Below are positions 2,232-33,570 of a DNA stretch of 35,031 nucleotides, piece by piece. The stretch is taken from positions 1 to 35,031 of the forward strand of contig JAQVEB010000004.1 in NCBI GenBank assembly GCA_028698105.1. Reading direction: 5' to 3'. This DNA is from Petrimonas sp. GTDB lineage: Bacteria > Bacteroidota > Bacteroidia > Bacteroidales > Dysgonomonadaceae. The first letter of the stretch is position 1. Each line of letters opens with the position of its first letter. The notes beneath the pieces are model-generated. The model saw nothing but the letters and a program-made list of their open reading frames with translations, was not told where the DNA came from and made no database searches. The translations under genes were made by a program, and so were the position numbers.

Positions 2232-2354
2232 CGTAAAAATCTTCAAATATCGGGTTTATACGTTAAAAAATTAACATTAGCTGGATTTTGCTTTTTTTAG
2301 GGGTGGCAGCGTTAACACCCTTACAATCCGAAAAACGAATAAACCCGTCAGAAG

Positions 2355-2385
2355 TTTCCGAAATCAAAGAAAAAAACTACTTTTG
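2355..2385 (+). promoter_or_regulatory. Promoter of the plus-strand POT gene
   Basis: TTTC at 2355-2358, a 19-base spacer, then TACTTTTG at 2378-2385 closely match the Bacteroidota pattern TTTG-N19-TAnnTTTG. The box lies 22 bases before the ATG at 2408 and inside the longer reading frame that begins at 2288, so it decides the start. Confidence 0.65.
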
Positions 2386-2407
2386 CGTATCAAAAAATCA
2401 AATCGTT

Positions 2408-3958
2408 ATGACTACAACCAAACAATCACACCCGAAAGGACTTTATTTTATTTTCGTGACCGGCATGGCCGAGCGTTTCGGGTATTACGGTATGCGCGCC
2501 ATCTTCGCGTTATACCTCATCAACGCGTTGATGTTCGATAAGGAACTTTCGTCCACCATTTACGGGAATTACACGGGGTTAGTGTATCTCACGCCCCTGA
2601 TCGGCGGCTACGTTGCCGACCGGTACTGGGGCATGCGAAAATCAATCTTCTGGGGAGCCGTGCTGATGGTTTTGGGACAGTTCCTGATGTTCCTGAGCGC
2701 GTGGAATTTTGAAAGTACCGAACTGGCCAAATGGCTGATGTTTGGCGGACTTGGTGCGCTGATATTCGGCAACGGTTTTTTTAAACCGAATATCTCCACA
2801 GCCGTGGGACAACTTTACGAGCCGGGCGACCGAAGGTTGGATTCCGCTTACACCATTTTTTACATGGGAGTGAACCTCGGCGCGTTTCTTGCACCGCTTC
2901 TCTGTGGTTATCTGGGCGATACCGGCAATCCTGCTGATTTTAAATGGGGATTTCTGGCTGCCACCGTCATGATGATCTTTTCCCTGATTTTGTATGCACT
3001 CAAAAAAGATACGTATCTGGTGAATCCGCAAGGGGAACCCATCGGTGTGAAACCGGCTATGAAGGAAGATATAGATAACGCACCGGCTTCTGCGGAGATG
3101 ATGGAGAAACCGAAAGCGAAACTTGATGTAAAACAAACGGTTATTTGGGGAGCGATAGGCGTTTTATTGTATGCCGTTTTCTACATGCTGGTGTTTAAAG
3201 GCGATGTGATCGGCTCGTTTATTTACACGGCGTGCATCGTGATCCCCGGTTACATCATTTCCAACAAATCGCTGACGAAAATTGAGCGCGACCGCATTTG
3301 GGTGATTTACATCATAGCCTTTTTCGTGATATTCTTTTGGTCGGCATTTGAACAGGCAGGCATCTCGCTCACTTACTTTGCCGAAGAGCAAACTAACCGT
3401 ACGATCTTCGGGAAAACCATTCCCACGAGCTGGTTTCAATCGCTCAACGCGATTTTTGTGGTGCTACTGGCGCCGTTGTTTTCCACCATGTGGTTGAAAC
3501 TCGGGCAAAAGAACATGGAACCCGCATCGCCAACCAAACAAGCCATCGGGTTGTTTTTGTTGTCGCTGGGTTATTTGTTGATCGCCTTCGGCGTAAAAGA
3601 TGTGGCTCCGGGTGTGAGGGTGAGCATGTTGTGGTTGGTGGGCCTGTATTTTATTCACACGATGGGAGAGCTCAGTTTATCGCCGATAGGCTTGTCCATG
3701 GTCAATAAGCTTTCTCCTGTCCGTTTTGCATCGCTGCTGATGGGGGTATGGTATTTGTCTATGGCTACTTCCAACAAACTTGCCGGAACGTTGAGCGCAT
3801 TGTATCCCGAAGCGGGAAAATCGAAATCTCTTTTCGGTTTCGAGATCGTGACTTTGCACGATTTTTTCATGATATTCGTGTTTATGGCGGCCATAGCTGC
3901 CGTTATCCTGTTCTTCCTGTCGAAAAGGCTGCAAAAATTGATGCATAATATAAGGTAA
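2408..3958 (+). CDS. POT/PTR2-family peptide:proton symporter
   Basis: A 516-residue member of the proton-coupled oligopeptide transporter family, expected to import di/tripeptides across the inner membrane. Visible landmarks are GMAERFGYYGMR near the N-terminus, GNGFFKPNIS around TM4 with the conserved Lys, and FWSAFEQAG in TM7 with Glu315, the residue matching GkPOT E310. The first Glu of the ExxERFxYY motif is Gly here. The paralogue on the other strand lacks the TM7 Glu, so the two divergent genes are probably not redundant. The reading frame is open from 2288, but the predicted promoter at 2355-2385 and the match to the paralogue's N-terminus favour the ATG at 2408. No clear terminator was seen before the aromatic leader. 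Confidence 0.88.
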   Translation: MTTTKQSHPKGLYFIFVTGMAERFGYYGMRAIFALYLINALMFDKELSSTIYGNYTGLVYLTPLIGGYVADRYWGMRKSIFWGAVLMVLGQFLMFLSAWNFESTELAKWLMFGGLGALIFGNGFFKPNISTAVGQLYEPGDRRLDSAYTIFYMGVNLGAFLAPLLCGYLGDTGNPADFKWGFLAATVMMIFSLILYALKKDTYLVNPQGEPIGVKPAMKEDIDNAPASAEMMEKPKAKLDVKQTVIWGAIGVLLYAVFYMLVFKGDVIGSFIYTACIVIPGYIISNKSLTKIERDRIWVIYIIAFFVIFFWSAFEQAGISLTYFAEEQTNRTIFGKTIPTSWFQSLNAIFVVLLAPLFSTMWLKLGQKNMEPASPTKQAIGLFLLSLGYLLIAFGVKDVAPGVRVSMLWLVGLYFIHTMGELSLSPIGLSMVNKLSPVRFASLLMGVWYLSMATSNKLAGTLSALYPEAGKSKSLFGFEIVTLHDFFMIFVFMAAIAAVILFFLSKRLQKLMHNIR

Positions 3959-4000: not shown

Positions 4001-4030
4001 CTTGTTTTTACAGAAATTGTATTACATTTG
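4001..4030 (+). promoter_or_regulatory. Promoter of the aromatic amino acid operon
   Basis: CTTG at 4001-4004, an 18-base gap, then TACATTTG at 4023-4030, an exact TAnnTTTG minus-7 box. It lies 28 bases upstream of the leader peptide ATG at 4059, placing the transcript start just before the leader. Confidence 0.65.
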
Positions 4031-4058
4031 CACTCTCAATTCGTAGAAAACGAATAAA

Positions 4059-4115
4059 ATGATACATACAAATTTTGCATATTCTTTTTGGTTTTACTTT
4101 TACTTTAGTAGGTGA
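4059..4115 (+). CDS. Aromatic leader peptide controlling the Phe/Tyr operon
   Basis: An 18-codon reading frame, MIHTNFAYSFWFYFYFSR, ends at TGA 4113-4115. Nine of the 18 residues are aromatic (five Phe, three Tyr, one Trp), and seven of the eight residues 9-16 other than one Ser are aromatic. That density is typical of attenuation leader peptides such as PheL and TrpL. It starts 28 bases after an exact minus-7 box and sits between that promoter and a terminator in front of pheA. Two bases after the stop begins a segment that can base-pair with the terminator's 5' arm. A ribosome that finishes the peptide would cover that segment, while one stalled on the Phe/Tyr codons would leave it free. 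Function is inferred from this layout, with no homologue search. Confidence 0.85.
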   Translation: MIHTNFAYSFWFYFYFSR

Positions 4116-4116
4116 A

Positions 4117-4185
4117 GGCAGGATTTTATATGCAAACGGAAAGAAGATTAAAAAGTCATACGATATAAAAAAGTAAAATCCTGTC
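4117..4185 (+). promoter_or_regulatory. Antiterminator (pairs 4117-4128 with 4174-4185)
   Basis: GGCAGGATTTTA at 4117-4128 can form 12 pairs (one G-U) with TAAAATCCTGTC at 4174-4185. The second segment contains the 5' arm of the terminator, so the two hairpins exclude each other. The first segment is in effect a second copy of the terminator's 3' arm placed directly behind the leader stop codon. Confidence 0.8.
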
Positions 4186-4208
4186 GCTACAACGGCAGGA
4201 TTTTTTTT
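4175..4208 (+). terminator. Attenuator: intrinsic terminator before pheA
   Basis: The stem AAAATCCTGTCG (4175-4186) pairs with CGGCAGGATTTT (4193-4204) over 12 positions, one of them a wobble, around a 6-base loop, and runs into T through 4208. It lies 26 bases before the pheA start, inside the operon leader, so it can only be a regulated terminator for the downstream genes. Confidence 0.88.
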
Positions 4209-4234
4209 AGATAGATAACGAAGTTGAATTACAG

Positions 4235-5083
4235 ATGAAAAAAATAGCGATACAAGGCGGATTAGGCGCTTATCACGAGATTGCAGCGCGCGATTATTTC
4301 GAAGGCGAAGAACTGGAAATTGTGCCTTGCCTCACCTTTCGTGATATTTTTGCCGAGGCAAAAAAAGACCCGTCGCTCATTGGCGTTATGGCCATTGAAA
4401 ATACCATTGCCGGCGGGTTGTTGCAGAATCACGATCTGCTGAAGATGAATGATTTACAGATCGCGGGCGAATACAAACTGCGTATTTCACACTCGCTGGC
4501 TGTGCTGCCCAGGCAATCGCCGGAGGATATCAGGGAAGTGATGTCGCACCCCATGGCGCTGATGCAGTGTGAGGAGTACTTAGATACGTTGCCCGATATA
4601 AAAATTGTGGAACACGAAGACACCGCACTCGCCGCCAAAGAGATTCGCGACCGCGGATTGAAAGGCACAGCGGCGATTTGCAGCAGCCTCGCCGCTGAAA
4701 TATACGGGTTGGAAGTCCTTGCTTCGGAAATTGAGACGAACAAGCGGAATTTCACCCGTTTTTTAATTCTCGCCCAGGGCGATACGCTCAAAGAACTGCA
4801 AAAGAATAACCACATCAGCAAATCGTCGCTGGTTTTTGTGCTTCCGCACAAGGAGGGTAGTTTGTCGCAGGTGCTTTCGGTATTGTCGTTTTACGGCATC
4901 AACCTTACGCGCATACAATCGCTGCCCATCGTTGGGCGCGAGTGGGAATACCAGTTTTACATTGATCTTACGTTCGCCGATTACGACCGTTATCGTCAAT
5001 CCATTGACGCGATAATGCCACTGATTAGCGATTTAAAAATTCTGGGCGAATACAGGAAAGGAAAACAAACGATAGAAGAATAA
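4235..5083 (+). CDS. pheA: Prephenate dehydratase with C-terminal ACT domain
   Basis: A 282-residue monofunctional enzyme converting prephenate to phenylpyruvate, the committed step to Phe. Residues 1-180 form the dehydratase domain: AIQGGLGAYHE near the start, AIENTIAGG (53-61) and the active-site TRF (174-176) in KRNFTRFLIL. An ACT domain follows from about 197. In Phe-inhibited enzymes this carries an ESRP motif; here the matching stretch NLTRIQSLP has QSLP, so allosteric control by Phe may be weak or different. There is no chorismate mutase domain, which instead is fused to the DAHP synthase two genes downstream. It is the first structural gene behind the attenuator, and its stop lies 5 bases before the aminotransferase start. 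Confidence 0.95.
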   Translation: MKKIAIQGGLGAYHEIAARDYFEGEELEIVPCLTFRDIFAEAKKDPSLIGVMAIENTIAGGLLQNHDLLKMNDLQIAGEYKLRISHSLAVLPRQSPEDIREVMSHPMALMQCEEYLDTLPDIKIVEHEDTALAAKEIRDRGLKGTAAICSSLAAEIYGLEVLASEIETNKRNFTRFLILAQGDTLKELQKNNHISKSSLVFVLPHKEGSLSQVLSVLSFYGINLTRIQSLPIVGREWEYQFYIDLTFADYDRYRQSIDAIMPLISDLKILGEYRKGKQTIEE

Positions 5084-5088
5084 CGGAA

Positions 5089-6252
5089 ATGAGCATAGAA
5101 CCTGCCGAACATATAAAAAACGTGCCGGAATATTATTTTTCGGTAAAACTGGCCGAAGTGGCCAGAATGAATGCCGAAGGCAAAGATGTGATCAATCTGG
5201 GTGTGGGAAGCCCCGATCAGCCGCCATCGGAAGCCACGATTGAGGCGCTTTGCGAAAGCGCCCGAAAACCCGACACACACGGCTACCAGTCTTACACCGG
5301 AATTCCCGAGCTGCGCTGCGCTTTTGCCGGGTGGTATCAGAAATATTACAATGTAACGCTTTCGGAGAACGAAATCCTGCCTTTGATCGGTTCCAAGGAA
5401 GGCGTTCTGCACATTTCGCTCACTTTCTTGAACGTAGGCGACGGGGTTTTGGTGCCCAATCCCGGATACCCGACATATTCGTCGGTATCCTCTCTTATGC
5501 GGGCGCGGCTCATTCCATACGATTTGTTGGAAGAAAACGGCTGGCAACCCGATTTCGAAGCGCTGGAAAAAACGGACTTGTCCGGTGTTAAACTCATGTG
5601 GGTAAATTACCCCAATATGCCTACGGGCGCGAACGCTACAAAGGCATTGTTCGAGAAACTGGTTGCCTTCGGCAAGAAGCACAGCATCATCATTTGTCAC
5701 GACAACCCATACAGTTTCATCCTGAACAACAAACCGATGAGCATTCTTTCGGTGGAAGGCGCAAAAGACATCTGCATTGAGCTGAACTCCATGAGCAAGT
5801 CGCACAACATGCCCGGATGGCGCATGGGAGTGCTGGCCTCGAACGCGCAATTCGTGAAATGGGTGCTCACCGAAAAAAGCAATATAGACAGCGGCCAGTT
5901 CAAACCCATGCAACTGGCTACCGTGGCGGCGTTATCCAATCCGCCTGAGTGGTACGACGAAATGAATGCATTATACGCAGCCCGGCGCGCATGGGCCGAA
6001 AAGATCATGGATTTGCTCGGCTGCATGTACGATAAAAAGCAGGTTGGATTGTTCGTTTGGGCAAAAATTCCTGATACGGCGCCCGACAGCAAAGCATTTA
6101 TTGACGATATTTTATACAACGCGAACGTGTTTCTCACTCCCGGAGCCATTTTCGGTAGCAACGGCCAGCGATATATTCGTATCTCGTTGTGTGCGCCTGA
6201 AGAAAAACTTAAGGAAGCGTATGACAGGATTGAAAAAATGTTCAACGTTTAA
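5089..6252 (+). CDS. Class I/II PLP-dependent aminotransferase (probable aromatic or prephenate aminotransferase)
   Basis: A 387-residue fold-type I aminotransferase. The PLP lysine is K237 in SMSKSHNMPGWRMG, and GVGSPDQPP near the N-terminus plus the late RISLCAPEE also fit class I/II enzymes of the aspartate or LL-diaminopimelate aminotransferase type. Lying five bases behind pheA and ahead of DAHP synthase-chorismate mutase and tyrA, it most likely supplies the transamination step of Phe/Tyr synthesis, acting on phenylpyruvate and 4-hydroxyphenylpyruvate or directly on prephenate. The family assignment is firm; the substrate is inferred from operon context only. It falls under the same attenuator as pheA. 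Confidence 0.88.
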   Translation: MSIEPAEHIKNVPEYYFSVKLAEVARMNAEGKDVINLGVGSPDQPPSEATIEALCESARKPDTHGYQSYTGIPELRCAFAGWYQKYYNVTLSENEILPLIGSKEGVLHISLTFLNVGDGVLVPNPGYPTYSSVSSLMRARLIPYDLLEENGWQPDFEALEKTDLSGVKLMWVNYPNMPTGANATKALFEKLVAFGKKHSIIICHDNPYSFILNNKPMSILSVEGAKDICIELNSMSKSHNMPGWRMGVLASNAQFVKWVLTEKSNIDSGQFKPMQLATVAALSNPPEWYDEMNALYAARRAWAEKIMDLLGCMYDKKQVGLFVWAKIPDTAPDSKAFIDDILYNANVFLTPGAIFGSNGQRYIRISLCAPEEKLKEAYDRIEKMFNV

Positions 6253-6334: not shown

Positions 6335-7405
6335 ATGAATTTCGAATCAATTTTACTTCCCGGCATAGACCCTAAACGACCGTTGGTTATTTCGGGCCCC
6401 TGCAGCGCCGAGACCGAAGAACAAGTGATGGCTACGGCCACGCAAATAGCCGCAAACGGCATCAAGATATTTCGCGCCGGAGTATGGAAACCGCGCACCA
6501 AACCCGGCGGGTTCGAGGGCGTAGGCAGCGAGGCTCTTAAATGGTTGCAACGGGTGAAAAGAGAAACCGGCATGTACACGGCCGTAGAGGTGGCAACGGA
6601 GAAGCACGTCTATGAAGCCCTGAAGTTCGGGGTTGACATTCTGTGGATCGGCGCACGCACAACGGCCAACCCTTTTGCCGTGCAGGAAATTGCCGATACC
6701 TTACGCGGGGTGGACATTCCCGTGTTGATCAAAAATCCGGTAAACCCTGATGTGGAGCTGTGGGTGGGCGCGCTGGAGCGTCTTTACAATGCAGGGATTA
6801 CCCGATTGGGAGCTATCCATCGCGGTTTCAGCTCTGCCGATAAAAACGTGTACCGTAACATTCCGCAATGGCACATTCCCATTGAGTTGCGCCGCCGTTT
6901 TCGCGATTTGCCGTTGATCTGCGACCCGAGCCATATCGGCGGAAAGCGAAACCTGATACTGAAAATAAGCCAGCAGGCGATGGATTTGAATTTCGACGGC
7001 CTGATCATCGAGTCGCACATCGCTCCCGATGAGGCGTGGAGCGACAGCGCCCAACAGGTAACGCCCCTCGCGCTGAAAGAGATACTGGCATCGCTCATCA
7101 TCCGCGATACGGTGCAGACAACCGAAGACCTGTCGGTGCTACGCGGCCAGATTGACGAGATTGACAACAGCCTGCTCGAATTATTGTCCAAGCGCATGCG
7201 CGTGTCGCGCGAGATCGGGCAGTACAAGCTGGAGCACGGCATGCCGGTTCTGCAGACGGTGCGCTACGATGAAATTCTGAAAGATCGCGCCGAGCAGGGC
7301 GAAAAAATGGATATGTCGGGCGAATTCGTGAAAAAAGTGCTCGAAAATATCCACGAAGAATCCGTTCGCCAGCAGTTGGTGATCATGGAGAAAGCGGGAA
7401 AGTGA
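6335..7405 (+). CDS. Bifunctional 3-deoxy-7-phosphoheptulonate synthase / chorismate mutase
   Basis: A 356-residue fusion carrying the entry enzyme of the shikimate pathway (DAHP from PEP and erythrose 4-phosphate) and chorismate mutase (chorismate to prephenate). Residues 1-260 are a type I-beta DAHP synthase without the N-terminal regulatory extension: SGPCSAET (20-27, metal-binding Cys23), KPRTKPGGFEG (52-62), KNPVNPD, AIHRGFS and CDPSHIGGKRN. An AroQ-type mutase starts near 266 with VLRGQIDEIDN, then LLSKRM and IGQYKLEHG. The same DAHP synthase-mutase order is known from Prevotella and Porphyromonas, where the mutase domain takes part in allosteric control by prephenate. The 82-base gap before it contains decayed CATCAAA-type repeats and no promoter match. 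Confidence 0.95.
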   Translation: MNFESILLPGIDPKRPLVISGPCSAETEEQVMATATQIAANGIKIFRAGVWKPRTKPGGFEGVGSEALKWLQRVKRETGMYTAVEVATEKHVYEALKFGVDILWIGARTTANPFAVQEIADTLRGVDIPVLIKNPVNPDVELWVGALERLYNAGITRLGAIHRGFSSADKNVYRNIPQWHIPIELRRRFRDLPLICDPSHIGGKRNLILKISQQAMDLNFDGLIIESHIAPDEAWSDSAQQVTPLALKEILASLIIRDTVQTTEDLSVLRGQIDEIDNSLLELLSKRMRVSREIGQYKLEHGMPVLQTVRYDEILKDRAEQGEKMDMSGEFVKKVLENIHEESVRQQLVIMEKAGK

Positions 7406-7643: not shown

Positions 7644-8417
7644 ATGAAAATACTAATTCTCGGCGCCGGAAAAATGGGATCGTTCTTCGCCGATGTGCTG
7701 AGTTTCGATCACGAAGTGGCCATTTTGGACACCGACCCACAAAAATTGCGGTTCACATACAATACGGAACGCATGACCGATCCGCAACAAGTGAAGGATT
7801 TCGCTCCCGAGCTGGTCATCAACGCCGTAACGCTCAAATATACCATCGAGGCGTTTAACCAGGTGTTGCCCTATTTGTCGCAAACATGTATTCTGAGCGA
7901 TATTGCTTCGGTAAAAACCGGACTCGAAGAGTTTTACCGCGAACGCACGCGCCCTTTCGTATCCACGCATCCCATGTTCGGGCCTACGTTTGCCAGCCTC
8001 AGCGACCTGAGTTCGCAGAGCGCGATCATCATTTCGGAATCGTCACATTTGGGGAAGGTATTTTTTCGCGATCTGTATCAGCGATTAAAACTTAATGTGT
8101 TTGAATACACGTTCCGGCAACACGACGAAACTATTGCCTATTCGCTTTCCATTCCGTTTGCCTCCACGCTGGTCTTCGCTTCGGTGATGAAACATCAGGA
8201 GGCGCCGGGAACTACCTTCAAAAAACACATGAACATTGCCCACGGGCTGCTCTCGGAAGACGATTTTCTCCTGACGGAGATTTTGTTCAACCCATATACG
8301 CCCGAACAACTGATGCTTATTCGTGAGAAACTAAAAGAATTATTGGCTATTATCGAAGACAAAGATTCGGAACGCATGAAAGGATTCCTCACGGAAGTGC
8401 GGAAAAATATTCAGTAA
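7644..8417 (+). CDS. tyrA: Prephenate dehydrogenase
   Basis: A 257-residue NAD(P)-dependent dehydrogenase that oxidatively decarboxylates prephenate to 4-hydroxyphenylpyruvate, the Tyr branch. The Rossmann glycine motif GAGKMG is at 7-12, and FVSTHPMFGPT (105-115) carries the conserved His expected at the active site. HDETIAYSLSIPFAST matches the helical C-terminal part. No ACT domain or mutase domain is attached, so feedback by Tyr would need another route. It is the last gene of the operon; the spacer before it is 238 bases of repeats, so it could be less tightly coupled than the first three genes. Start: ATG at 7644 directly gives the Rossmann strand MKILILGAG. Confidence 0.92.
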   Translation: MKILILGAGKMGSFFADVLSFDHEVAILDTDPQKLRFTYNTERMTDPQQVKDFAPELVINAVTLKYTIEAFNQVLPYLSQTCILSDIASVKTGLEEFYRERTRPFVSTHPMFGPTFASLSDLSSQSAIIISESSHLGKVFFRDLYQRLKLNVFEYTFRQHDETIAYSLSIPFASTLVFASVMKHQEAPGTTFKKHMNIAHGLLSEDDFLLTEILFNPYTPEQLMLIREKLKELLAIIEDKDSERMKGFLTEVRKNIQ

Positions 8418-17979: not shown

Positions 17980-19584
17980 ATGCCAACATTAACAGAAGAA
18001 GCCAGATCAAACTCATTAATGAGTATGCTGCTTAAGCAAGTGTATGACACCGTTACGAACGGCGGTGATCCCGATTCCATCGGGCCAAACGATTTTATTG
18101 CATTTGATCCCGTGGGGATTGTGTTGACGGAAGACACCTTCGATTTTGCACTCAAAGGGCTTTTCGGTTTTGCTCCTTCTCCGAAACCGGAGCTCGACAA
18201 GGACGGAAACCCCATTTTGGATAAAAACGGAAATCCGGTTGTGGATTTGGAAGGTTACAAAAACTTATTGGCCGAAAACAAATTCCGACGTTATTTGCAA
18301 ATGGAGCAATTCGCCGCGATGGTGGATGCGGTTAATTCCGGCATTCCACCCATGGTGGAAGGGAAAAACGGCCGGCAGATCACTATTTTCAACGATTCCT
18401 CGAAACGGGTATCCAAAATCTACGAAGATTTGTTGCAGTGGTCGGTTGTGGTTGACACACCAATGGACCCGAAAGTTGAAAAGAAATTGGACAAGATGCG
18501 GAATAAGCTCTTTAAGATCAAAAAAATAAAGAATCCCGATTTTGATGAAGCCGCGCCGATTGACGAAATGAATCAGCCGGAGATCATTCATACGTTCGTA
18601 TCGCCCATGTACGCTAAATATGTGGAGTACGAAATGAAATACTACGATGTAGTGGACAAGAACAATGAGATCAGAACGGCGGCCGATAATGGCGACCCCG
18701 ATGCCATGGCGCAGCTCTCCATTGACGGCAAAAACATGAAAAAACGCGAAGATTCCGCCCTCCGGGCATGGCAATCGCTCGGATACAAAGAAGCCGTGGA
18801 GCGCATCCAAAACTACCTGAGCGAAATTGAAGAAAAACACATGCTGGTTATCAAAAAGCGGTTGCAATCGGAATTCCGCAACAGCCAGCGCACCCGTATT
18901 CTGGATTACACCAATTACTCGCCCACAATCCCCATTCCCGCCGGAGCACTGAAAGAAGCATCAAAATGGCCCACCCTCACATTAAGTGAGCGCGAAGTGC
19001 ACTCCGACTATTCAAACACCATTCACAAATGGGGCGCAGCCCTGGGATTCAGCCTTGGTATATTCTCAATCGGTGCAAGCGGCAGTGGATCACATCAACG
19101 CACGAAGTCCAACATTGACCTGAGCAATCTCACCATTTCGTTTAAAATCGGGAAAGTGCGCGTTGAACGCGGCTGGTTTAACGAAGCGTTCGTAGAATCA
19201 AAATACTGGAAACTGCACGAAAACTCTCCGCAGGTATTGAACGGCGATATCATTAGCGACGGACAGGGAAAAGGACTGATGCCTTCCATCGTTACCGAGT
19301 TGATCATTGCCAAAGACGTGTATATGAATTTTGGCGACAGCAAAAGCAGCTACGAGTTTGCGAGAGATACCGTAAATGCCGGCGGTGGAATTGGAATTGG
19401 TCCTTTTGTGATCGGCGGTCGTTACGGTTACGATCATCAGGAGTCGCATAGCGACTATTCATTCAAAGGCAAGGGGTTGTTTTCGCCTTGCACGTATATC
19501 ATCGGCTACAAATGCCATGTGATCCCCAAATCGCCCGATCCGAACCCATCCATCACAAAATGGACGGATGGCAAAACAGAATAA
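17980..19584 (+). CDS. Uncharacterised 534-residue protein with RGWF module, no signal peptide
   Basis: I do not recognise a named family. The N-terminal half is mostly helical and charged, with LDKDGNPILDKNGNPVVDLEG near 70-90 and a long helical part (about 165-305). The C-terminal half (about 330-534) looks beta-rich and Gly/Ser-rich: WGAALGFSLGIFSIGASGSG, then VRVERGWFNEAFVESKYW, SIVTELIIAKDVYMNF, GGGIGIGPFVIGGRYGYD, and a closing IIGYKCHVIPKSPDPNPSI. The glycine-rich alternating segments could be amphipathic hairpins, as in pore formers, but that is inference. The next gene repeats the RGWF and LLIKN elements, so the two are related. No Sec signal or membrane helix was seen. It begins 105 bases after the HU gene, with an A-rich start region. 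Confidence 0.8.
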   Translation: MPTLTEEARSNSLMSMLLKQVYDTVTNGGDPDSIGPNDFIAFDPVGIVLTEDTFDFALKGLFGFAPSPKPELDKDGNPILDKNGNPVVDLEGYKNLLAENKFRRYLQMEQFAAMVDAVNSGIPPMVEGKNGRQITIFNDSSKRVSKIYEDLLQWSVVVDTPMDPKVEKKLDKMRNKLFKIKKIKNPDFDEAAPIDEMNQPEIIHTFVSPMYAKYVEYEMKYYDVVDKNNEIRTAADNGDPDAMAQLSIDGKNMKKREDSALRAWQSLGYKEAVERIQNYLSEIEEKHMLVIKKRLQSEFRNSQRTRILDYTNYSPTIPIPAGALKEASKWPTLTLSEREVHSDYSNTIHKWGAALGFSLGIFSIGASGSGSHQRTKSNIDLSNLTISFKIGKVRVERGWFNEAFVESKYWKLHENSPQVLNGDIISDGQGKGLMPSIVTELIIAKDVYMNFGDSKSSYEFARDTVNAGGGIGIGPFVIGGRYGYDHQESHSDYSFKGKGLFSPCTYIIGYKCHVIPKSPDPNPSITKWTDGKTE

Positions 19585-19597
19585 TTCATAAACTCCC

Positions 19598-19634
19598 GAA
19601 GGCGTGTGGTGCACTCAGGCGCATCCACGCCTTC
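19598..19634 (+). promoter_or_regulatory. Intercistronic hairpin between the two RGWF genes
   Basis: GAAGGCGTG (19598-19606) and CACGCCTTC (19626-19634) form a perfect 9-bp stem around a 19-base loop that can partly pair inside. It fills most of the 69-base gap and ends 20 bases before the next ATG. No T-run follows, so an RNA-processing or translation-control role is more likely than termination. Confidence 0.5.
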
Positions 19635-19653
19635 ATCAAACAACAGGATTCCG

Positions 19654-21438
19654 ATGAAGTACTATATCGCGTTGTATCAAAAGTTGAAAGATATTTATTT
19701 TTCGCAGAGCTCCCGGGCCGGCGATCTGGTTTTAATATGTCCTTCGCTCCGTTTATACGAAATGGATGATTTGCAGTTGCTTAAGCCGCAAAGTTTGATC
19801 GGCGATCTTTCAAAAGTTCCCGACTCCATACTCAAGAAACAGCAGGTTTCTTATGAGTTAAACTCCATTCCCAACTCCGATGAATACTGGGATTTGAATC
19901 CCAATAACACGCTGTTCGACGCGTATCGCGAAATACTGAATTACGCCACGGTGAAAGAATTGGCTCAGGGTCTCGATGCCGTAGTTAATGCCGATTATCC
20001 GAAACTGATCACAAACGGAAAAGAAACGCCGGAGTATAAAGCTTACAAGAAGCAGATGAATTTGTATGTCGCGCAAACCGAAAAGATTGCCGAACATCTG
20101 GCTTTGTTCGACGAATTGGACACCGATGAAGAAAAGCAAAACTGGACTGCTCAGCTTGCGGTGTTGAAATCGAAAAAAGATCAGGCATTGGCCGAATGGG
20201 GTATAAAAGGGTATAAAACGATGATTGAAGAAGCGCTTGAAGCCGTCAATAAATTATCGGAAGCCGATAAATTTCTCGACCTGTTCCGATCGGTAAAAAA
20301 CAACTTCGATGCTGCCGAAAAAACCGATGTAACTGCGCTTTCGGCTATTCACGATATCAATTTCATCCCGTACGATTTTATGGAAAACGAATCGGGTTGG
20401 ACGTATCTTTTTCTCGATAAAAACGGACTTGAATCTCTTTTTGCGACCGCAAAAAACAATGCCCGCCACTTGCCCGAAGAAATTCTGGATATTGAGTACG
20501 ACGAGAAATATATTGACAGCATTGAATTCGATTACGCTTTCGTACACCTGAAGAGAGGTTGGTTCAACAAACAGATTTTCAATTCCGGTTATTTTCAATG
20601 GAAGGAATCGCAACCGATTTCGGATGGAGAAACGGTTTCGACGGATTTCAAACTGCCCGCATTCCCAAAAACTATGCTCCTGATCAAGAACCTCAAAATC
20701 AACCTAAACGATGCAGTTTCAGAATCACAGGTAAACAGCCAGGATCAGATCATTCATTTTGGGCCAATGATTTTGAAACAACAGCTTTTCGTGAACAAAA
20801 GCACCAATCGAAAATTCCTGAAAACGGTCACCAATAAAGACATCATTAAATCGGATCAAATGAACTACATGATCCGCAAGGCCGAAGAAACCGAAACCGT
20901 TTCGCAACCGGTAAAGGCTAAGGAAGGGATTACCGTTGGAGGTAACACGATAAAAATACCCTTAACCCGGAATATTCTGTTGCGGAATAAAATATTTGAA
21001 CGCAAGGAAAATCAGCCGGTTACGGTAGGCCAATTGCGCGAAAAGAAATTAGTGGCCTCGCAACTGGCGTTTAAAAGAGGCGACATTTTTGCCAAAATTG
21101 ATGTGAAAGTCCCTTCCACGGTAGCCAGAATTTTTTTCAATATTACAGACAGTAATTCGCGAAAAGGGATTTATAAATGTGCCCTTTCCATAAAAGGGAA
21201 AGACAACAACCGGGTTATAGAAATTGAAACCGACGAAAACGGCCAGATATCGGCTTCGGTTCCTGTCGGAAATTACGACCTCGAAGCCAGAATTGACGGT
21301 TACCAAATATTAAACAAAAGCTTTGCAGTTCAAAACACAAATCCGCTCACCCTTTCGTATGCGATGAACAGGGAAGAAATTAAATTCAAATCGTTCTTCC
21401 TTATCGGAATGGTTTGCGAGCGAATACCAAAAATATAA
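19654..21438 (+). CDS. Uncharacterised 594-residue protein with RGWF module and C-terminal carboxypeptidase-regulatory-like domain
   Basis: Related in part to the preceding protein: after a helical, charged region (about 100-225), FVHLKRGWFNKQIFNSGYF and FPKTMLLIKNLKINL parallel VRVERGWFNEAFVESKYW and SIVTELIIAKDVYMNF there. The C-terminus (about 480-575) looks like a transthyretin/carboxypeptidase-regulatory-like beta-sandwich: RKGIYKCALSIKG, IETDENGQISASVPVGNYDL, EARIDGYQIL. No signal peptide or membrane helix is visible. An upstream in-frame GTG at 19606 would start inside the intercistronic hairpin, so the ATG at 19654 (MKYYIALYQKLKDIY) is preferred. The stop is 26 bases before the muramidase gene. 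Function unknown; the shared module and adjacency suggest the two proteins act together. Confidence 0.78.
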   Translation: MKYYIALYQKLKDIYFSQSSRAGDLVLICPSLRLYEMDDLQLLKPQSLIGDLSKVPDSILKKQQVSYELNSIPNSDEYWDLNPNNTLFDAYREILNYATVKELAQGLDAVVNADYPKLITNGKETPEYKAYKKQMNLYVAQTEKIAEHLALFDELDTDEEKQNWTAQLAVLKSKKDQALAEWGIKGYKTMIEEALEAVNKLSEADKFLDLFRSVKNNFDAAEKTDVTALSAIHDINFIPYDFMENESGWTYLFLDKNGLESLFATAKNNARHLPEEILDIEYDEKYIDSIEFDYAFVHLKRGWFNKQIFNSGYFQWKESQPISDGETVSTDFKLPAFPKTMLLIKNLKINLNDAVSESQVNSQDQIIHFGPMILKQQLFVNKSTNRKFLKTVTNKDIIKSDQMNYMIRKAEETETVSQPVKAKEGITVGGNTIKIPLTRNILLRNKIFERKENQPVTVGQLREKKLVASQLAFKRGDIFAKIDVKVPSTVARIFFNITDSNSRKGIYKCALSIKGKDNNRVIEIETDENGQISASVPVGNYDLEARIDGYQILNKSFAVQNTNPLTLSYAMNREEIKFKSFFLIGMVCERIPKI

Positions 21439-21464
21439 TTCACCGATAAATCCCACATTACAAA

Positions 21465-22289
21465 ATGAGAACATTGCGTTATTATACAAAAGCTTCGGAA
21501 GTTGCCACATTATGTGAAATGTTGTACAAACTCGGCTACAACGTAAAAATATCAGACTCCTTCACGCTCGAAGTGGATGCGGCCGTAAAGCAGTTCCAAC
21601 GCAACAACAATTTGGTCGTTGATGGAATTGTGGGCCCCAAAACATGGCAAAAACTGTATGAAAAATGCCCCCAGATCACCCAACAAAACGACAAGCTTTT
21701 ATCGGAGGCCGATTTAATTGATTTCGCAAATCAATTCGGACTGGAATTGGCGCTGGTGAAGGCGGTAAACGAGATCGAGAGCGGCGGAAAAGGATTCCTG
21801 ATCAATGGAAAACCGGTGATTTTGTTTGAAGGACATGTTTTTTGGAGGGAACTGCAAAAAAGAGGCATCAATCCCCGGATGTATGCAACCGAATATAACC
21901 GAGACGTGCTTTATGAAACATGGACGAGGAGCTATTATCTGGGAGGCATACGGGAGTACGACCGGTTGAATAAAGCCATCAGCATACTCAACACGGAAAG
22001 TGCGAAGGAAGCAGCCCTCTCGTCGGCTTCGTGGGGCGCCTTCCAGATCATGGGATTTAACGCGAAAAATCTCGGCTACCCCAGTGTGGATGACTTTGAG
22101 GCGAAAATGAATCTGCACGAAAGAGAACATTTGCGCGCTTTTGGCCGGTTCCTGCAGGTAAACGGACTTATTCCGCTGCTAGCGGCAAAACAATGGGCGC
22201 GCTTTGCCGAAAGATACAATGGAAAAGGCTACAAAGCCAATCAATACGATGTGAAATTAGAGAAAGCGTATCAGAAATACAAACGTTAA
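21465..22289 (+). CDS. N-acetylmuramidase with N-terminal peptidoglycan-binding domain (phage-endolysin type)
   Basis: A 274-residue peptidoglycan hydrolase. Residues 8-66 form a PG_binding_1 domain (AVKQFQRNNNLVVDGIVGPKTW). From about 78 the N-acetylmuramidase (DUF3380-type) domain follows, with VNEIESGGKGF (101-111), which probably contains the catalytic Glu, then ILFEGHVFW and SSASWGAFQIMGFNAKNLGY. Such enzymes cut the MurNAc-GlcNAc bond and are common as phage endolysins. There is no signal peptide, yet several downstream genes encode exported proteins; the enzyme must reach the wall by a holin-like, lytic or device-borne route, or act only on lysis. The gene fits tightly behind the 594-residue protein gene. 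Confidence 0.9.
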   Translation: MRTLRYYTKASEVATLCEMLYKLGYNVKISDSFTLEVDAAVKQFQRNNNLVVDGIVGPKTWQKLYEKCPQITQQNDKLLSEADLIDFANQFGLELALVKAVNEIESGGKGFLINGKPVILFEGHVFWRELQKRGINPRMYATEYNRDVLYETWTRSYYLGGIREYDRLNKAISILNTESAKEAALSSASWGAFQIMGFNAKNLGYPSVDDFEAKMNLHEREHLRAFGRFLQVNGLIPLLAAKQWARFAERYNGKGYKANQYDVKLEKAYQKYKR

Positions 22290-22353
22290 GCAAGAGCCGC
22301 AAGAAGAGGCTCGAAAAAAATGAAAATATTAATGATAAAACAACTCAATTGAA

Positions 22354-23031
22354 ATGAAAACAAAAAAAATTTATGGGGTGATCGCAGCAACAATCGCTCT
22401 TTTTTTCGCCTGCGAAAAAGATGGAATAACAGTCACCCCGATCAAAAATTTCATCTCGGAAGGAAATGTTGACGGGTATATCGAGAATTTAACAACCCCC
22501 GTAGTACATGATTATTATTCGGCTCCCCAGGGCAAATCGCTTTGCGTCGGATGGAACGGTAACGGATATAGTATGCGCGGCTTCCTGAGTTTCAACATCG
22601 CCGAAATCATGCCGGCTTCGGGTAAAGAATTGATTATTGACGATGCCGTGCTGCAAGTTTATGAGTCAAACACAAACATGCACCCTTTCGATGGTTCAGG
22701 TACGCGGGTAGTAAATTGTTATTTGGTGGATTATGGCACGTTGGATAAAACCGATTACAACCAGGCATCGCTTGCCGATTGCGGTATTATTGCAACCTGG
22801 GGATATAATGTGTTGGAAGAACATGCGTTGAAAGTAACAACGCCCGTGAATAATTTTATAAAAGCAAATCCAACCGGTAGCAAAATTCAGTTCCGTTTGC
22901 AGTTTGTGCCCGACGGAAATGTTCAAACGCCATCACCACTCACAAATTCCATGTGGCTTATTTTTTCGGGCGACGAAACCGGCAAATCGGACTATCGTCC
23001 GAAACTGACGATAAAATATCATTATAGGTAA
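22354..23031 (+). CDS. Lipoprotein with DNRLRE-like beta domain
   Basis: A 225-residue lipoprotein. The signal peptide ends in the lipobox ALFFAC with Cys20, followed by EKDG, a Lys/acidic stretch like the export signal that sends Bacteroidota lipoproteins to the outer surface. The mature part resembles DNRLRE-type domains of cell-surface proteins: RGFLSFNIAEI, then LIIDDAVLQVYE, and a closing DYRPKLTIKYHY. It is likely surface-exposed and beta-sandwich in fold; no catalytic motif was seen. The 64-base gap before it contains a small 5-bp hairpin. The gene is followed after 55 bases by the barrel gene. Domain naming is from memory and not searched. Confidence 0.75.
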   Translation: MKTKKIYGVIAATIALFFACEKDGITVTPIKNFISEGNVDGYIENLTTPVVHDYYSAPQGKSLCVGWNGNGYSMRGFLSFNIAEIMPASGKELIIDDAVLQVYESNTNMHPFDGSGTRVVNCYLVDYGTLDKTDYNQASLADCGIIATWGYNVLEEHALKVTTPVNNFIKANPTGSKIQFRLQFVPDGNVQTPSPLTNSMWLIFSGDETGKSDYRPKLTIKYHYR

Positions 23032-23086
23032 CAGAAAATTTCCGGATCATTTAGCGCTTTTCTATTTAACTCAAAAACGGAAAGAT

Positions 23087-24778
23087 ATGAAAACCGTAAA
23101 AAATTATAAGATTCTATATCTGATGCTGTTTTTTGCGTTGACAAACGGAGTCTTTGCACAGGACTTATCTAATTTAAAGAATGAAAAACCTGTTGTTGTT
23201 AATGGTAGCATTGGGTTAAATACATCTTTTTACGATGTTTCGGGTATTCCTGCAAGGCAAACGCCGTTTGCTTACGGTATAAATGCCAACGCCACCTTAA
23301 CGGTGTACGGTATTAGTATGCCGTTTTCCTTCACGTGGTATAGCAACGATAAAGCGGGATTTAACCAACCTTTCAATCAATTTGGTATTAGTCCGACTTA
23401 TAAATGGCTGACCGTGCACTTGGGGTATCGAAACGTCTCTTTTTCAGAATTTACGTTGAACGGATATACCTTTCTTGGGGCCAGTGTTGAAGCGCGCCCC
23501 GGGAAATTCCGACTGGGCGCCGTTTATGGCAAATTCAACCAAAATTCCCAATTCGATTTAGCAATGGCAGACAGCATCCCGAAACTTACACGAACGGGTT
23601 GGGCTGCAAAAATCGGGTATGGAACCGACAACCGTTTCGTGGATGTTTCATTGCTGCGCATTGGCGATAAGCCGAAAAATTTCACGGATAGTCTGGCAAA
23701 ATCAGGACAACCCACACCTGCCCAAAATCTGGCAGTGGGTTTAACGTCGAGGTTTGCGATTACCCCGAAACTGATTTTTAATTTCGATGGGTCCATGAGT
23801 TTTTTTACCGATAACCGGACAATTGCCAAATCAGATTCGCTCGCCAATGGCTTACTCCGTTTTGCCGGTAATTTCATAACGGTAAATAACACCAGCGAAT
23901 ACCACAAAGCCATCAAAACCGGATTGAGTTACCGTTTTTCGCAAACCGTTATTTCAGGCTTTGAATATCGCCGTATAGATCCGGGCTTTCAATCCATGGG
24001 AAGTTATTTTTTTAACGACGACGTGGAGATGTTTACGTTTAATCAAACGGCTTCTTTCCTGGAAAATAAAATCAACGCTCGCGGCTCGCTGGGTTTTCAA
24101 CGCGATAATTTGAACGAAACCAAAAAAAGTACGGCAAAACGCGTTATTGGTTCGTTATCGGGTAATTACAATATAAATGAACATTGGGGAATAGATGCAT
24201 CTTACAGTAACTTTTCTACCAATCAGCGTGCGTTTAAAACGGCACAAAACGATAGTTTAATGATCTATCAGGTAAATCACAACATGATGTTGATGCCTCG
24301 CTTCATGATAACATCCGAAACCGCCTCGCACATGATAATGCTTAATCTCAACTGGATGAAGCTGGACGACAGAAATAAGCAAACGCAGGATCAAACAAAT
24401 ACCGATACGTACGTTGCTATGTTAATGTACAATCTTGGACTTCCGAAAATAAAACTAAACATTACTTCCGGAGTGAATTATACCAATATGGTCAATAAAA
24501 ACTACAACAATAAGTTAATGGGGGCAACACTTAATCTGGCAAAAACATTTTTGGAAGATAAGTTGTCTCTTAACTTAAACAACTCTTTTATGATCAATAA
24601 GATAAATAGCGATAATGGGACGGTTTTGAATCTCGGACTAACGATGAACTATCGTTTTCTACCAAAGCATGGCGTTACGCTAAACTTTAATATGATAAAC
24701 AATACGTTTTCCAATTCAACCACCGTTCCGTCATTTAACGAATTTAGAGGAGATATAGGTTATGTTTTCACATTCTAA
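23087..24778 (+). CDS. Outer-membrane beta-barrel protein
   Basis: A 563-residue exported protein with a signal peptide (about 1-24, ending VFAQ). The remainder is a long run of alternating amphipathic strands such as PTYKWLTVHLGYRNVSF, KLIFNFDGSMSFF and GVTLNFNMINNTF, ending GDIGYVFTF with a terminal Phe, the usual barrel-assembly signal. The number of strands cannot be counted reliably; the length would suit roughly 20 or more. No plug or TonB box was recognised, so it does not look like SusC. Its last 17 bases overlap the start of the 1978-residue protein gene, which suggests translational coupling and possibly a partnership in which the barrel anchors or exports its neighbour. Confidence 0.82.
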   Translation: MKTVKNYKILYLMLFFALTNGVFAQDLSNLKNEKPVVVNGSIGLNTSFYDVSGIPARQTPFAYGINANATLTVYGISMPFSFTWYSNDKAGFNQPFNQFGISPTYKWLTVHLGYRNVSFSEFTLNGYTFLGASVEARPGKFRLGAVYGKFNQNSQFDLAMADSIPKLTRTGWAAKIGYGTDNRFVDVSLLRIGDKPKNFTDSLAKSGQPTPAQNLAVGLTSRFAITPKLIFNFDGSMSFFTDNRTIAKSDSLANGLLRFAGNFITVNNTSEYHKAIKTGLSYRFSQTVISGFEYRRIDPGFQSMGSYFFNDDVEMFTFNQTASFLENKINARGSLGFQRDNLNETKKSTAKRVIGSLSGNYNINEHWGIDASYSNFSTNQRAFKTAQNDSLMIYQVNHNMMLMPRFMITSETASHMIMLNLNWMKLDDRNKQTQDQTNTDTYVAMLMYNLGLPKIKLNITSGVNYTNMVNKNYNNKLMGATLNLAKTFLEDKLSLNLNNSFMINKINSDNGTVLNLGLTMNYRFLPKHGVTLNFNMINNTFSNSTTVPSFNEFRGDIGYVFTF

Positions 24779-27700
24779 AAAAATAAATATTCAACGACTA
24801 TTGATCGTGTTGATAGGGTTGGCGGCATTTTGCAACATGCGGGCACAAATAACACAAACCGTTTCCGTAATGCCTCCTTATTCCAACAAATTATCGGATT
24901 ACATAGCGTCGCCGGGTAAAATCAACAGTATTATAAAATGTTCAGGCTTCGACAAAGTTGAATTCAGAATATTTATTCGCGGTACGATAATGAGTACGGA
25001 TGAATCCATAATTATCCGTACCAAAAACGACTATAAACCCGCCACGCCTATAATTATCAAAGGGACATTAACCCCAGACGGAGCTCCGATATTTATGCCT
25101 TACATGCTTACATACAGCAATATTCTTCAGATATTTAACCAGCAGCAATTGGAATATCTGGGAGTTACCCGTGAGCAGGTGGCACAACAGGGACTTCCTG
25201 AAAACACTTATCAAATTTGTTTTTCTATTTACGACTATGAAACAGGAAGGCCTTTTTCAAGTGCATCAGTTTGTAGCAACGTTTTCACCGTTTCATCGGT
25301 TGAAGCGCCCATGATTATTAGTCCGATCAATCGCATTTCACTTAGCGAGCCGGAAACCAAAAATGTGGTTTTCACGTGGACGCGCCCTGCCGGAGCTCCT
25401 GTCAGTACACAATATAAACTCAAGATAATTCAATTAAACAATGAGAACACCAATTATCAGGATTTTATAAGATCGGCCGGTTATCCTACTTTTTTTGAAA
25501 CGACCGTTACGGGAAATACATATCTCTATTCTGCTGCCAATCCACAGTTTACCCCCGGTAAAACCTATGCTTTTGTGGTTTCAGCCATTGACCCTGCCGG
25601 AGGAACTGCCTTTCGGAACAAAGGTTTCAGCGAAGTAAATGTGTTCACTTACCAGCCCGATGAACAAAAAGCCATGAGTGGTAGCTTGCCTGGCGGGGTA
25701 AATACCGGTCAGCCGAAAATAAATTTTAATCTGGACAAAAAAATTACGCCTGTAGCCTTATCTCTCACTACGTTAAAAGGAACGCTGGTATATAAATACA
25801 AAAACGGCAATAAAAAATATCCGCTATCTAAGGCGAAAATTAAATTGATCACCAAATACATTGTGAAATATGCCGATGGAAGTATTAATGAAGAGATGAC
25901 CCGAAAAAACATATCTACCGGTAATTATATAGACGGAAAAGAGATTGCCGTGACAACAACCGGCGATAACGGCATTTTTTCGTTTACCTTCTTATCCAAT
26001 AGCAAGGGTGAGCCACTGGCCGATACGGATTGTTCCGTTAAAGTTGCCGACTTAAACCAACCTGCTAACACAACAAATGAAGTTTTTCTGGCCGATTTGT
26101 CATCTCACACAAAGCGAGGAGGTCCCATGCCCGATGATGCACCTGCAATCATTACCAGTGGCGGAGAAAATTCCTGTAAATTGTATCTTGCTTATGCCAT
26201 AGAAATAGAAGGGGAACATTCCCGGTATTACCTAAATCCTGATCAGGAAACACGATTTTTTTTCGAGGCAAAAGGTGGAGAACCTAATGATGTTGGAGAA
26301 GTTATTTCGTTGGTTAAAACGGTAGATGTGAAAGTAAAAGTAAAATCGGGAAAAAGCGATTTGGCCATTAATTCAAGTCAGGAATTAGCCAACATGAACG
26401 TTTTCGTGTTTCGAAAGATAAATTTCGATTATCCACCCATATTTCCCGCCGCCGATGTAACACCCGACAAGGAAGATAACTTTCCGGCGCCGGTAGCTTC
26501 CATGGAATGCGTAGGCAAGGGATTAACCGATCAAAACGGGGTGGCAAAAATTTCTTCGTTGGTGTTTAACGATAACCCAACGTATCAGTACTATCTTTAT
26601 GTCAATAATTCACAAAATTACAATTACGAAACAGATGCACCCATTTGCATAGATTTTGCCGAATTGGTTGCTCCTAAGACAACATCTCCAAACGGACAAC
26701 CTAATTTTATTGATCAATCAACCCCCGGATATGAAACGATGAGGAACATGCGGTCGTCCTTCAGTTATTTTTCGCCAAGTTACAGCAGTATCATAAACGG
26801 ATACGATTATATGGTGGAACTGAAAACACGGTTTCCGTCGCTGCGTATTATTTTGCAGGAAACCGATGGACTGAAAAAACTCGACCAATCGGCGCAAGTA
26901 ACACTTAAAGAAAAATATTCCAACGGAAATGCGGTCTTTGCACCCAATATGTTTCAGGGTGTGCAGGGAGAATTGATATTGTCTAAACCTATGGCGTATT
27001 ACGATAAAGGAACCTACGAACTCAACAACTTAGGATTGGAATTGCATGATGCCAAAACAATCGTAGGCCCTGAACGCACCGTAACCGTAAAAACAGCAGG
27101 TTTTGCCGATACCACTTTCGTGGTAAAAAACGGACAAGGGCTTAAAATGGGCGAACGGTATCAAATGATCATAACCATGCGCTACGGGGCAACGTTCAGC
27201 GGTCGTGTTATAGATGCCGAAACACGAGAACCACTGCCAAATGCAGCATTGAAAATTTTGGGAGAAATGTCCAAAGTTACCACAACCAATACTCAGGGAG
27301 ACTTTTCGGTTGAAACACGTAAATTAAATTCAATGCGTTCCGTAGAAATTTCGCATGGAGGATATATAACCGATACGGTGCAGGTAAAATTGGACAAAGA
27401 TAAAAATCAGTACTACTTCGAATTGTACCGCAAAGCCCGACGGCTTCGTGTAATCGTATGGGGCAAAAATGATTATGCCGAAGGCATAGAAGTTTCATTG
27501 CCGGATGTGCCGGGAAGTTGGAAAACAGACTACAATAAAGCGCCCGGTTCACAGTTGTTATCCGAAAAAATGAGTGGTGCGTCGCCAATAATAGCCACTA
27601 TTACAACGGGCGTTGTGGCGCAAAAAATGAAAACGCTGCCGGTCACACTTCCTTCATCCGCCCCATCATCAAAAACCACTAAACTTGGCGCATCAAAAAC

Positions 27701-30698: not shown

Positions 30699-30725
30699 CT
30701 CCGACAACAGAAAAAATAAAGTGAT

Positions 30726-32738: not shown

Positions 32739-32877
32739 CAAATAAGGGATAAAGATTTTTTATCAATCTGACGATACAAAACCAGAGAGACGTCTTTAGG
32801 TTCCCCTTAATATTCAAGTTGCCTGCAATAAGCGGCAGATTAAAATGAAAATAAATAGAATTTAAAAAAAAGAAAAC

Positions 32878-33570
32878 ATGAAAACAAAAAAAATGAAACC
32901 TCAAACCATTTTGTATTTGTTCGTTGCTTTGTTGTTTTTTGCATACTCATGCAATGGAAACAAGCAAGAAAAGGAAACAAAAGTCACTGAGCCGGCAACG
33001 GAAGTGTTGAACCCAACTACGGGTTCTTATAAAATTGAATACAACACGCTAACGCAGGTTGAGGGAATGGAAATGAAAGGACGCGTTCTGCAGTGGATTG
33101 ATCTGAAAAACAAACGGTTCCGTATGGAAATGGAGAACGAAATGGGCCTGACAAGCAATAAGCAGGTAATGAAATCGCTACTTATCGGAAACGACGAATG
33201 GACGTGGGTTATTGATTTATCTTCCAATACGGGCCTGAAATTCAATAGTGCGTCGTATGACGATAATCCGCTGCAAAAGATCAAAAATGAAGATGAAACC
33301 GATTTCGAAGAGGCCATCAAAAACGAGAACGGGAAAATTGTAGGAACAGAAATATTGTTGGGGAAAAAATGCACGGTTGTGAGTTTACCATTAAGTCACG
33401 GCGAAAATCGTTCAACCATGAAAGCATGGTATTATCACGGCATCCCGTTGAAAATAGTCGCACCGTTTTATACGATGGAAGCTACATCATTTGAGGAGAA
33501 TGTGGAAATACCCGAAGAAAATTTAAAAGTTCCCGATAACATTACCTTTATGGAAATGCCGGATATGTAA
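32878..33570 (+). CDS. Lipoprotein of unknown function
   Basis: A 230-residue lipoprotein: a signal peptide with the lipobox FAYSC (Cys25), a Lys/Glu/Thr linker (KQEKETKVTEPATEV), then a beta-rich domain with SYKIEYNTLTQVEGMEMKG, VLQWIDLKNKRFRME and GTEILLGKKCTVVSLPLSHG. The pattern of strands with a K(T/N)RFRME-like element recalls periplasmic domains that monitor or bind lipid-like ligands (DUF4412/LolA-like), but that is only a resemblance. A second Met lies at codon 6; the first, directly behind an A-rich stretch, was chosen. The 139-base gap before it contains no TAnnTTTG box and no recognised terminator, so it probably belongs to the same transcript. Confidence 0.75.
   Translation: MKTKKMKPQTILYLFVALLFFAYSCNGNKQEKETKVTEPATEVLNPTTGSYKIEYNTLTQVEGMEMKGRVLQWIDLKNKRFRMEMENEMGLTSNKQVMKSLLIGNDEWTWVIDLSSNTGLKFNSASYDDNPLQKIKNEDETDFEEAIKNENGKIVGTEILLGKKCTVVSLPLSHGENRSTMKAWYYHGIPLKIVAPFYTMEATSFEENVEIPEENLKVPDNITFMEMPDM

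Follow-up and report, generated by a model that had tools for sequence, protein, structure and literature searches.

Leader peptides rich in Phe and Tyr and mutually exclusive hairpins point to ribosome-mediated attenuation ahead of pheA in Bacteroidales

The pheA (pheL) and pheST attenuators of enterobacteria combine a Phe-rich leader peptide with alternative 1:2, 2:3 and 3:4 hairpins, and pheL controls prephenate dehydratase. Single leaders that sense more than one amino acid are also established, among them thrL and ilv. Attenuators of Bacteroidetes/Chlorobi are reportedly mentioned by Vitreschak in 2004. In 2010, prior to the Firmicutes case presented in the same paper, leader-peptide systems were stated to be known only from Proteobacteria and Actinobacteria (PMC2965389). 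Short open reading frames (ORFs) reminiscent of leader peptides were later described in Bacteroides thetaiotaomicron (PMC7366714, 2020). A 2021 article on Flavobacterium psychrophilum reports strong clues for leader-peptide attenuation upstream of amino-acid operons; the structured 5′ elements that it names ahead of pheA and hisG are shared among Flavobacteriaceae and have no entry in Rfam (PMC9723704). In the openly readable literature searched, no Phe/Tyr leader attenuator in Bacteroidota was found. A preliminary description of the present locus had been aware of no described case of this kind in the phylum; this holds for a Phe/Tyr attenuator in the literature searched, but has to be qualified by the clues in F. 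psychrophilum. The general type is already known; new here are its anatomy in detail, the predicted control of an entire pathway by both Phe and Tyr, and the breadth of its occurrence.

The window, the whole stretch of DNA that was analysed, comprises 35,031 nucleotides of a Petrimonas sp. contig (JAQVEB010000004.1). Directly upstream of the attenuator it carries two divergent genes for POT-family oligopeptide:H+ symporters (TIGR00924), at 652-2226 on the minus strand and 2288-3958 on the plus strand. The elements of the leader region are as follows.

4023-4030, plus strand: Bacteroidota-type −7 promoter element TACATTTG (consensus TAnnTTTG), from its sequence and the motif in relatives
4059-4115, plus strand: leader peptide ORF MIHTNFAYSFWFYFYFSR with its stop codon, read from the sequence and from orthologues in relatives
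4074-4082, plus strand: segment 1, outer arm of the 1:2 hairpin, TTTGCATAT, codons Phe-Ala-Tyr, from folding and covariation
4117-4128, plus strand: segment 2, the antiterminator strand, GGCAGGATTTTA, immediately 3′ of the leader stop, from its pairing with 4174-4185
4128-4136, plus strand: segment 1′, 3′ arm of the 1:2 outer stem, ATATGCAAA, from folding and covariation
4174-4185, plus strand: segment 3, TAAAATCCTGTC, common to antiterminator (2:3) and terminator (3:4), from covariation of both stems
4175-4210, plus strand: intrinsic terminator with stem 4175-4186 : 4193-4204, a loop of 6 and a U-tract, from folding, a terminator scan and covariation

Read directly from the window, the leader ORF starts at an ATG (4059-4061), extends over 18 codons to 4112 and ends at a TGA (4113-4115). 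It holds five Phe, three Tyr and one Trp codons, exactly as given in the preliminary description, which had also noted a promoter box upstream, now placed at 4023-4030. The control codons are F6, Y8, F10, F12, Y13, F14, Y15 and F16, and W11 is lineage-specific. The promoter box lies 36 nt before the ATG; 85 of 88 loci have a TAnnTTTG box 5′ of their leader, and the commonest spacing to the ATG is again exactly 36 nt.

Two mutually exclusive structures involve segment 3. The antiterminator (4117-4128 : 4174-4185) consists of 12 base pairs, and the stretch able to form it folds with z = −3.1 against dinucleotide-preserving shuffles. The terminator (z = −5.4 by the same measure) is the top terminator of the scan and lies 26 nt before pheA, which starts at 4235. 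Both had been proposed in the preliminary description, and both covary among relatives (see below). A third structure, absent from that description, appears when the leader is folded up to 4140, as a single long hairpin from 4074 to 4136 (−19.3 kcal/mol, z = −4.5). Its outer stem joins 4074-4082 to 4128-4136 (TTTGCATAT with ATATGCAAA), and further in, the control codons pair with segment 2 and the region of the stop. This hairpin corresponds to the 1:2 structure known from classical attenuators and is the decisive competitor, since the antiterminator strand is hidden within it. The interleaved order of the segments also raised the possibility of a pseudoknot between 1:1′ and 2:3, but the simpler nested 1:2 hairpin accounts for the fold.

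PheA searches yielded 22 loci with enough upstream sequence from 31 relatives, and 78 Bacteroidales loci from named GTDB contigs, the two sets overlapping in part; the named set includes Proteiniphilum, Seramator, Petrimonas, Fermentimonas, Dysgonomonas, Paludibacter, Parabacteroides, Tannerella, Bacteroides and others. The preliminary description had suggested aligning this region and had taken relatives devoid of leader ORF or stems as evidence against its reading. An F/Y-rich leader with a terminator precedes pheA at 77 of the 78 named loci and at all 22 loci of the relatives. Conservation extends to the leader codons and their spacing, to both the antiterminator and the terminator, and to the promoter and the genes downstream. 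The one exception is locus L087 (Barb4), with no leader in the 300 nt upstream of pheA. The leaders lie mostly 130-300 nt 5′ of pheA and have cores such as FAYSFxFYFYFx(K/R) and FTYFYFYFYF. Over both strands of all 80 named Bacteroidales loci (493 kb), 72 of the 73 short ORFs with such F/Y content are pheA leaders, and the leader ORF ahead of pheA is not due to chance. Its conservation suggests that the leader is translated. In almost all loci the distance from the last control codon to the start of segment 2 is 8-12 nt, which is the footprint required for it to be free when a ribosome stalls and masked when the ribosome is at the stop.

That a metabolite- or tRNA-binding riboswitch of T-box-like kind acts here, with the ORF incidental, would fit a structured 5′ leader with a terminator and an antiterminator. 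The conserved element, however, is an F/Y-rich ORF at fixed spacing to the antiterminator, with the conserved positions falling on codons, and Rfam gives no T-box or riboswitch match at the gathering or a relaxed threshold; a riboswitch is extremely improbable. No RNA family matches the window at the Rfam gathering score. Sub-threshold hits to Thr_leader (25.7, gathering score 55, relaxed scan) and to Phe_leader (RF01859; 21.1 bits, gathering score 55) were rejected, as was a single, implausible sub-threshold miRNA match at another locus (L070) in the relaxed scan.

Covariation was assessed on an alignment of 41 diverse loci, with shuffles and slid registers as controls. The antiterminator is paired in 84.4% of cells (at most 47% when slid) with 54 two-sided changes (24 in shuffles), the terminator in 93.9% (about 55% slid) with 59 (15), and the 1:2 outer stem in 87.0% (at most 53% slid) with 28 (11). 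The compensatory changes that the preliminary description had proposed to look for in the 2:3 and 3:4 stems are thus present, and the 1:2 stem has them too; for example, a leader Ala→Thr replacement (GCA→ACA) is mirrored by TGCAA→TGTAA 3′ of the stop. Tolerance of U-G/U-A preserves the inner pairs of the 1:2 hairpin, which show no covariation of their own. An additional pairing named earlier, TTTTACTTTT with AAAAGTAAAA (4092-4101 : 4169-4178), is present as text and finds no comparative support: across the 41 aligned loci it is paired in 67.1% of cells, as against 67.7% in shuffles, with no two-sided change.

Switching was computed by partition-function folding with segment 3 just transcribed, a ribosome footprint of 30 nt and the kinetic order being assumed. 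In the Petrimonas leader the probability of the 2:3 pairing is 0.10 for free RNA, 0.00 with a ribosome at the stop, and 0.98-0.99 with a ribosome on any of the seven codons tested (6, 8, 11, 13, 14, 15 and 16). Across 87 loci the medians are 0.63 for free RNA, 0.96 with a ribosome stalled on the last control codon and 0.00 with it at the stop; values exceed 0.8 when stalled in 80 of 87 loci and fall below 0.3 at the stop in 80 of 87. As modelled, the ribosome-free default varies among species, and the stalled and completed states appear uniform. For the full-length transcript the terminator is favoured in every ribosome state, so that the decision must be co-transcriptional, as in known attenuators.

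Taken with the conservation and covariation, the computed co-transcriptional switch bears out the earlier reading of this layout as classical translation-coupled attenuation. With high confidence, grounded in sequence comparison and folding models, we assign the element to the classical trp/pheA type of ribosome-mediated transcription attenuator, one that would sense the supply of Phe and Tyr. Transcription would start near 4036, and the leader would be translated without a Shine-Dalgarno sequence. With charged tRNA-Phe and tRNA-Tyr plentiful, the ribosome would reach the stop at 4113 and cover segment 2 (4117-4128); segments 3 and 4 would then pair, and RNA polymerase would halt at the U-tract, near 4205-4212. 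With tRNA-Phe or tRNA-Tyr scarce, the ribosome would stall between F6 and F16, open the 1:2 hairpin and expose segment 2, which would pair with segment 3 ahead of segment 4 synthesis and let transcription proceed into pheA and the aminotransferase, DAHP synthase-chorismate mutase and tyrA genes. If the leader were not translated, the 1:2 hairpin would form and the terminator would win. In this scheme we infer where transcription begins, that amino-acid supply is what the element responds to, that ribosome and polymerase are coupled, and that read-through reaches all four genes.

Which amino acids would be sensed can be judged from the 88 leaders, every one of which contains both Phe and Tyr (means of 6.0 and 3.6), with at least two Tyr codons in all. 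Trp occurs in 21 of 88, mostly in a Proteiniphilum-like subgroup that includes the leader of the window, and was rejected as a general signal on that count. The earlier proposal that one leader senses several aromatic amino acids therefore appears to stand for Phe and Tyr, with codons for both in 88 of 88, but not for Trp; judged by codon content, the conserved sensor is one of Phe plus Tyr, and Trp sensing seems not to be conserved. The folding model predicts that a stall at the Trp codon of the window's own leader should antiterminate too. In the last FYF of the leaders, Phe is encoded by TTT in 171 of 174 cases and Tyr by TAC in 81 of 87, as against 59% and 41% in the pheA genes. So nearly fixed a choice means that RNA pairing or codon speed constrains the leader as well, and the TAC bias could also be read as a nucleotide-level constraint under which Phe alone is sensed and the Tyr codons just break up a poly-U run prone to slippage or early termination. 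E. coli pheL, with Phe codons only, would be in keeping with such a sensor. Against it stand the number of Tyr codons in every leader, the Tyr made by the operon besides Phe, and divergent class- and phylum-level leaders that retain Tyr at shifting positions (YYFGYFYYF, STYYYFYYP before tyrA and YFYFYFYFF). A Phe-only sensor is therefore unlikely, and dual sensing of Phe and Tyr is the reading followed here.

The genes placed under control form a set for Phe and Tyr synthesis.

4235-5083, plus strand: pheA, prephenate dehydratase (PF00800, 7.9e-55)
5089-6252, plus strand: PLP aminotransferase, likely to be the set's aromatic or aspartate aminotransferase (aminotransferase families at E 1e-117, below equivalog cut-offs; synteny)
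6335-7405, plus strand: DAHP synthase fused to chorismate mutase (PF00793, 2.3e-36; PF01817, 3.3e-24)
7644-8417, plus strand: tyrA, prephenate dehydrogenase (PF02153, 5.5e-9; prephenate dehydrogenase NCBIfam matches)

This order is retained in nearly all Bacteroidales loci of sufficient length. The intergenic gaps of about 82 nt before the third gene and about 238 nt before the fourth leave space for other promoters, and a plus-strand scan of these two larger gaps detected no terminator-like site. Read-through probably takes in all four genes jointly. Elsewhere in the window, a run of large proteins encoded on the plus strand (17980-33570) has no Pfam family or only CarboxypepD_reg domains; amid it lies an N-acetylmuramidase with a peptidoglycan-binding domain (21465-22289).

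A variant of the leader is found in Bacteroides (L082, L085, L088-L093, L095, L096, L099, L100, L102 and L104), where the stop codon lies about ten codons further 3′ and the peptide ends in FYFYFSNKVEREFVCIK. With this shift the antiterminator strand becomes translated (KVEREFVCIK), and the control codons have their complement in the added codons AAAGTAGAG. In L091 the whole 1:2 hairpin still forms on folding. In L082, L088, L095, L100 and L104 the model still gives 2:3 with a ribosome at the stop, segment 2 being unmasked, and a simple folding model thus leaves termination incompletely explained in some Bacteroides species.

At class level, 21 of the 29 loci read carry an F/Y-rich leader and terminator directly ahead of pheA; in two further genomes (L123 and L124) the attenuator precedes a DAHP synthase-chorismate mutase (DAHPS-CM) gene about 4 kb upstream of pheA. 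A covariance model built from Bacteroidales only, run under strict filters, matched 54 of 297 genomes of the phylum. Among 29 phylum-level loci inspected, 25 precede pheA, DAHPS-CM, DAHPS or tyrA, and Pfam confirmed one DAHPS-CM, one DAHPS and one tyrA among the downstream genes. In other classes of the phylum, F/Y-rich leaders precede a prephenate dehydrogenase gene (L204) and the gene of a ferredoxin-domain DAHP synthase (L199). All of these are genes of the same pathway, which was counted in favour of an attenuator. The remaining four loci (L209-L212) are unrelated to it and were set aside as false positives of the covariance model at E near 1e-5.

Family and RNA-model searches of the Petrimonas genome itself revealed two further leaders. 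A His leader (MFHHHHHFHTCLQAR; L139/L182, contig C264) with a terminator lies directly before hisG, and a Trp leader (MDHLFTNGYWWRRLQLFQS; L180, contig C159:6524-6663) with a terminator before trpB was found with the RNA model of the pheA leader. Like the Phe/Tyr leader, each combines a short ORF with repeated cognate codons, a terminator and a biosynthetic gene, whereas the control codons are those for His or Trp. His leaders were present in all 12 Bacteroidia genomes checked (this genome and 11 others), and in about half of the same 12 a Trp or Val/Leu leader precedes trpE or ilvD. In other Bacteroidia, Trp-rich (WWWH) leaders with terminators precede trpE (L148, L150, L153 and L156), and Val/Leu/Ile-rich leaders with terminators precede ilvD (L165, L168, L169, L170 and L172).

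These counterparts before matching operons also bear on the idea that leader and terminator are real but act by translation-independent premature termination, as a stable small RNA or as a small protein. The peptide itself is conserved, and a short 5′ transcript some 175 nt in length, which such an element would yield, is expected in any case. The conservation of the peptide, however, is already explained by control codons and base pairing, and translation-independent action would leave no role for segment 2 and the competing antiterminator, which makes it very improbable. Under ribosome-mediated attenuation, the presence of the Phe/Tyr device before the same genes in nearly all Bacteroidales suggests that the classic enterobacterial mechanism is general in this phylum too. 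Leader-peptide attenuation is probably a phylum-wide control of amino-acid operons in Bacteroidota (Phe/Tyr, His, Trp and Val/Leu), providing natural switches that would imply tight coupling of transcription and translation.

For aromatic amino-acid synthesis in a phylum with dominant gut commensals (Bacteroides and Parabacteroides), the attenuator supplies a regulatory RNA that is precisely defined and open to testing, and an Rfam family for it has so far been lacking. A working attenuator needs the ribosome to match the pace of RNA polymerase, and these leaders offer a direct test of transcription-translation coupling in Bacteroidota; if they function throughout the phylum, coupling would be tight where ribosomes largely ignore Shine-Dalgarno sequences. 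They would also offer natural amino-acid-tuned expression switches for organisms with few known riboregulators, and the architecture shared by the His, Trp and Val/Leu leaders suggests a whole unannotated regulon.

Among described systems, the pheA element of F. psychrophilum shares gene and phylum with the attenuator of the window, as far as the excerpts of PMC9723704 show; these excerpts present neither a leader sequence nor alternative pairing or covariation, and conservation is mentioned only within Flavobacteriaceae. The thrL and ilv leaders resemble it in sensing several amino acids each and differ in the amino acids sensed and in the operon. With the enterobacterial pheL type it has in common a leader peptide rich in Phe, the 1:2, 2:3 and 3:4 hairpins and a prephenate dehydratase gene downstream, without sequence relationship to Phe_leader (RF01859). 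Unlike enterobacterial pheL, the Petrimonas leader carries both Phe and Tyr codons, stands before a four-gene Phe/Tyr set, lacks an evident Shine-Dalgarno sequence and is preceded by a promoter of the Bacteroidota type.
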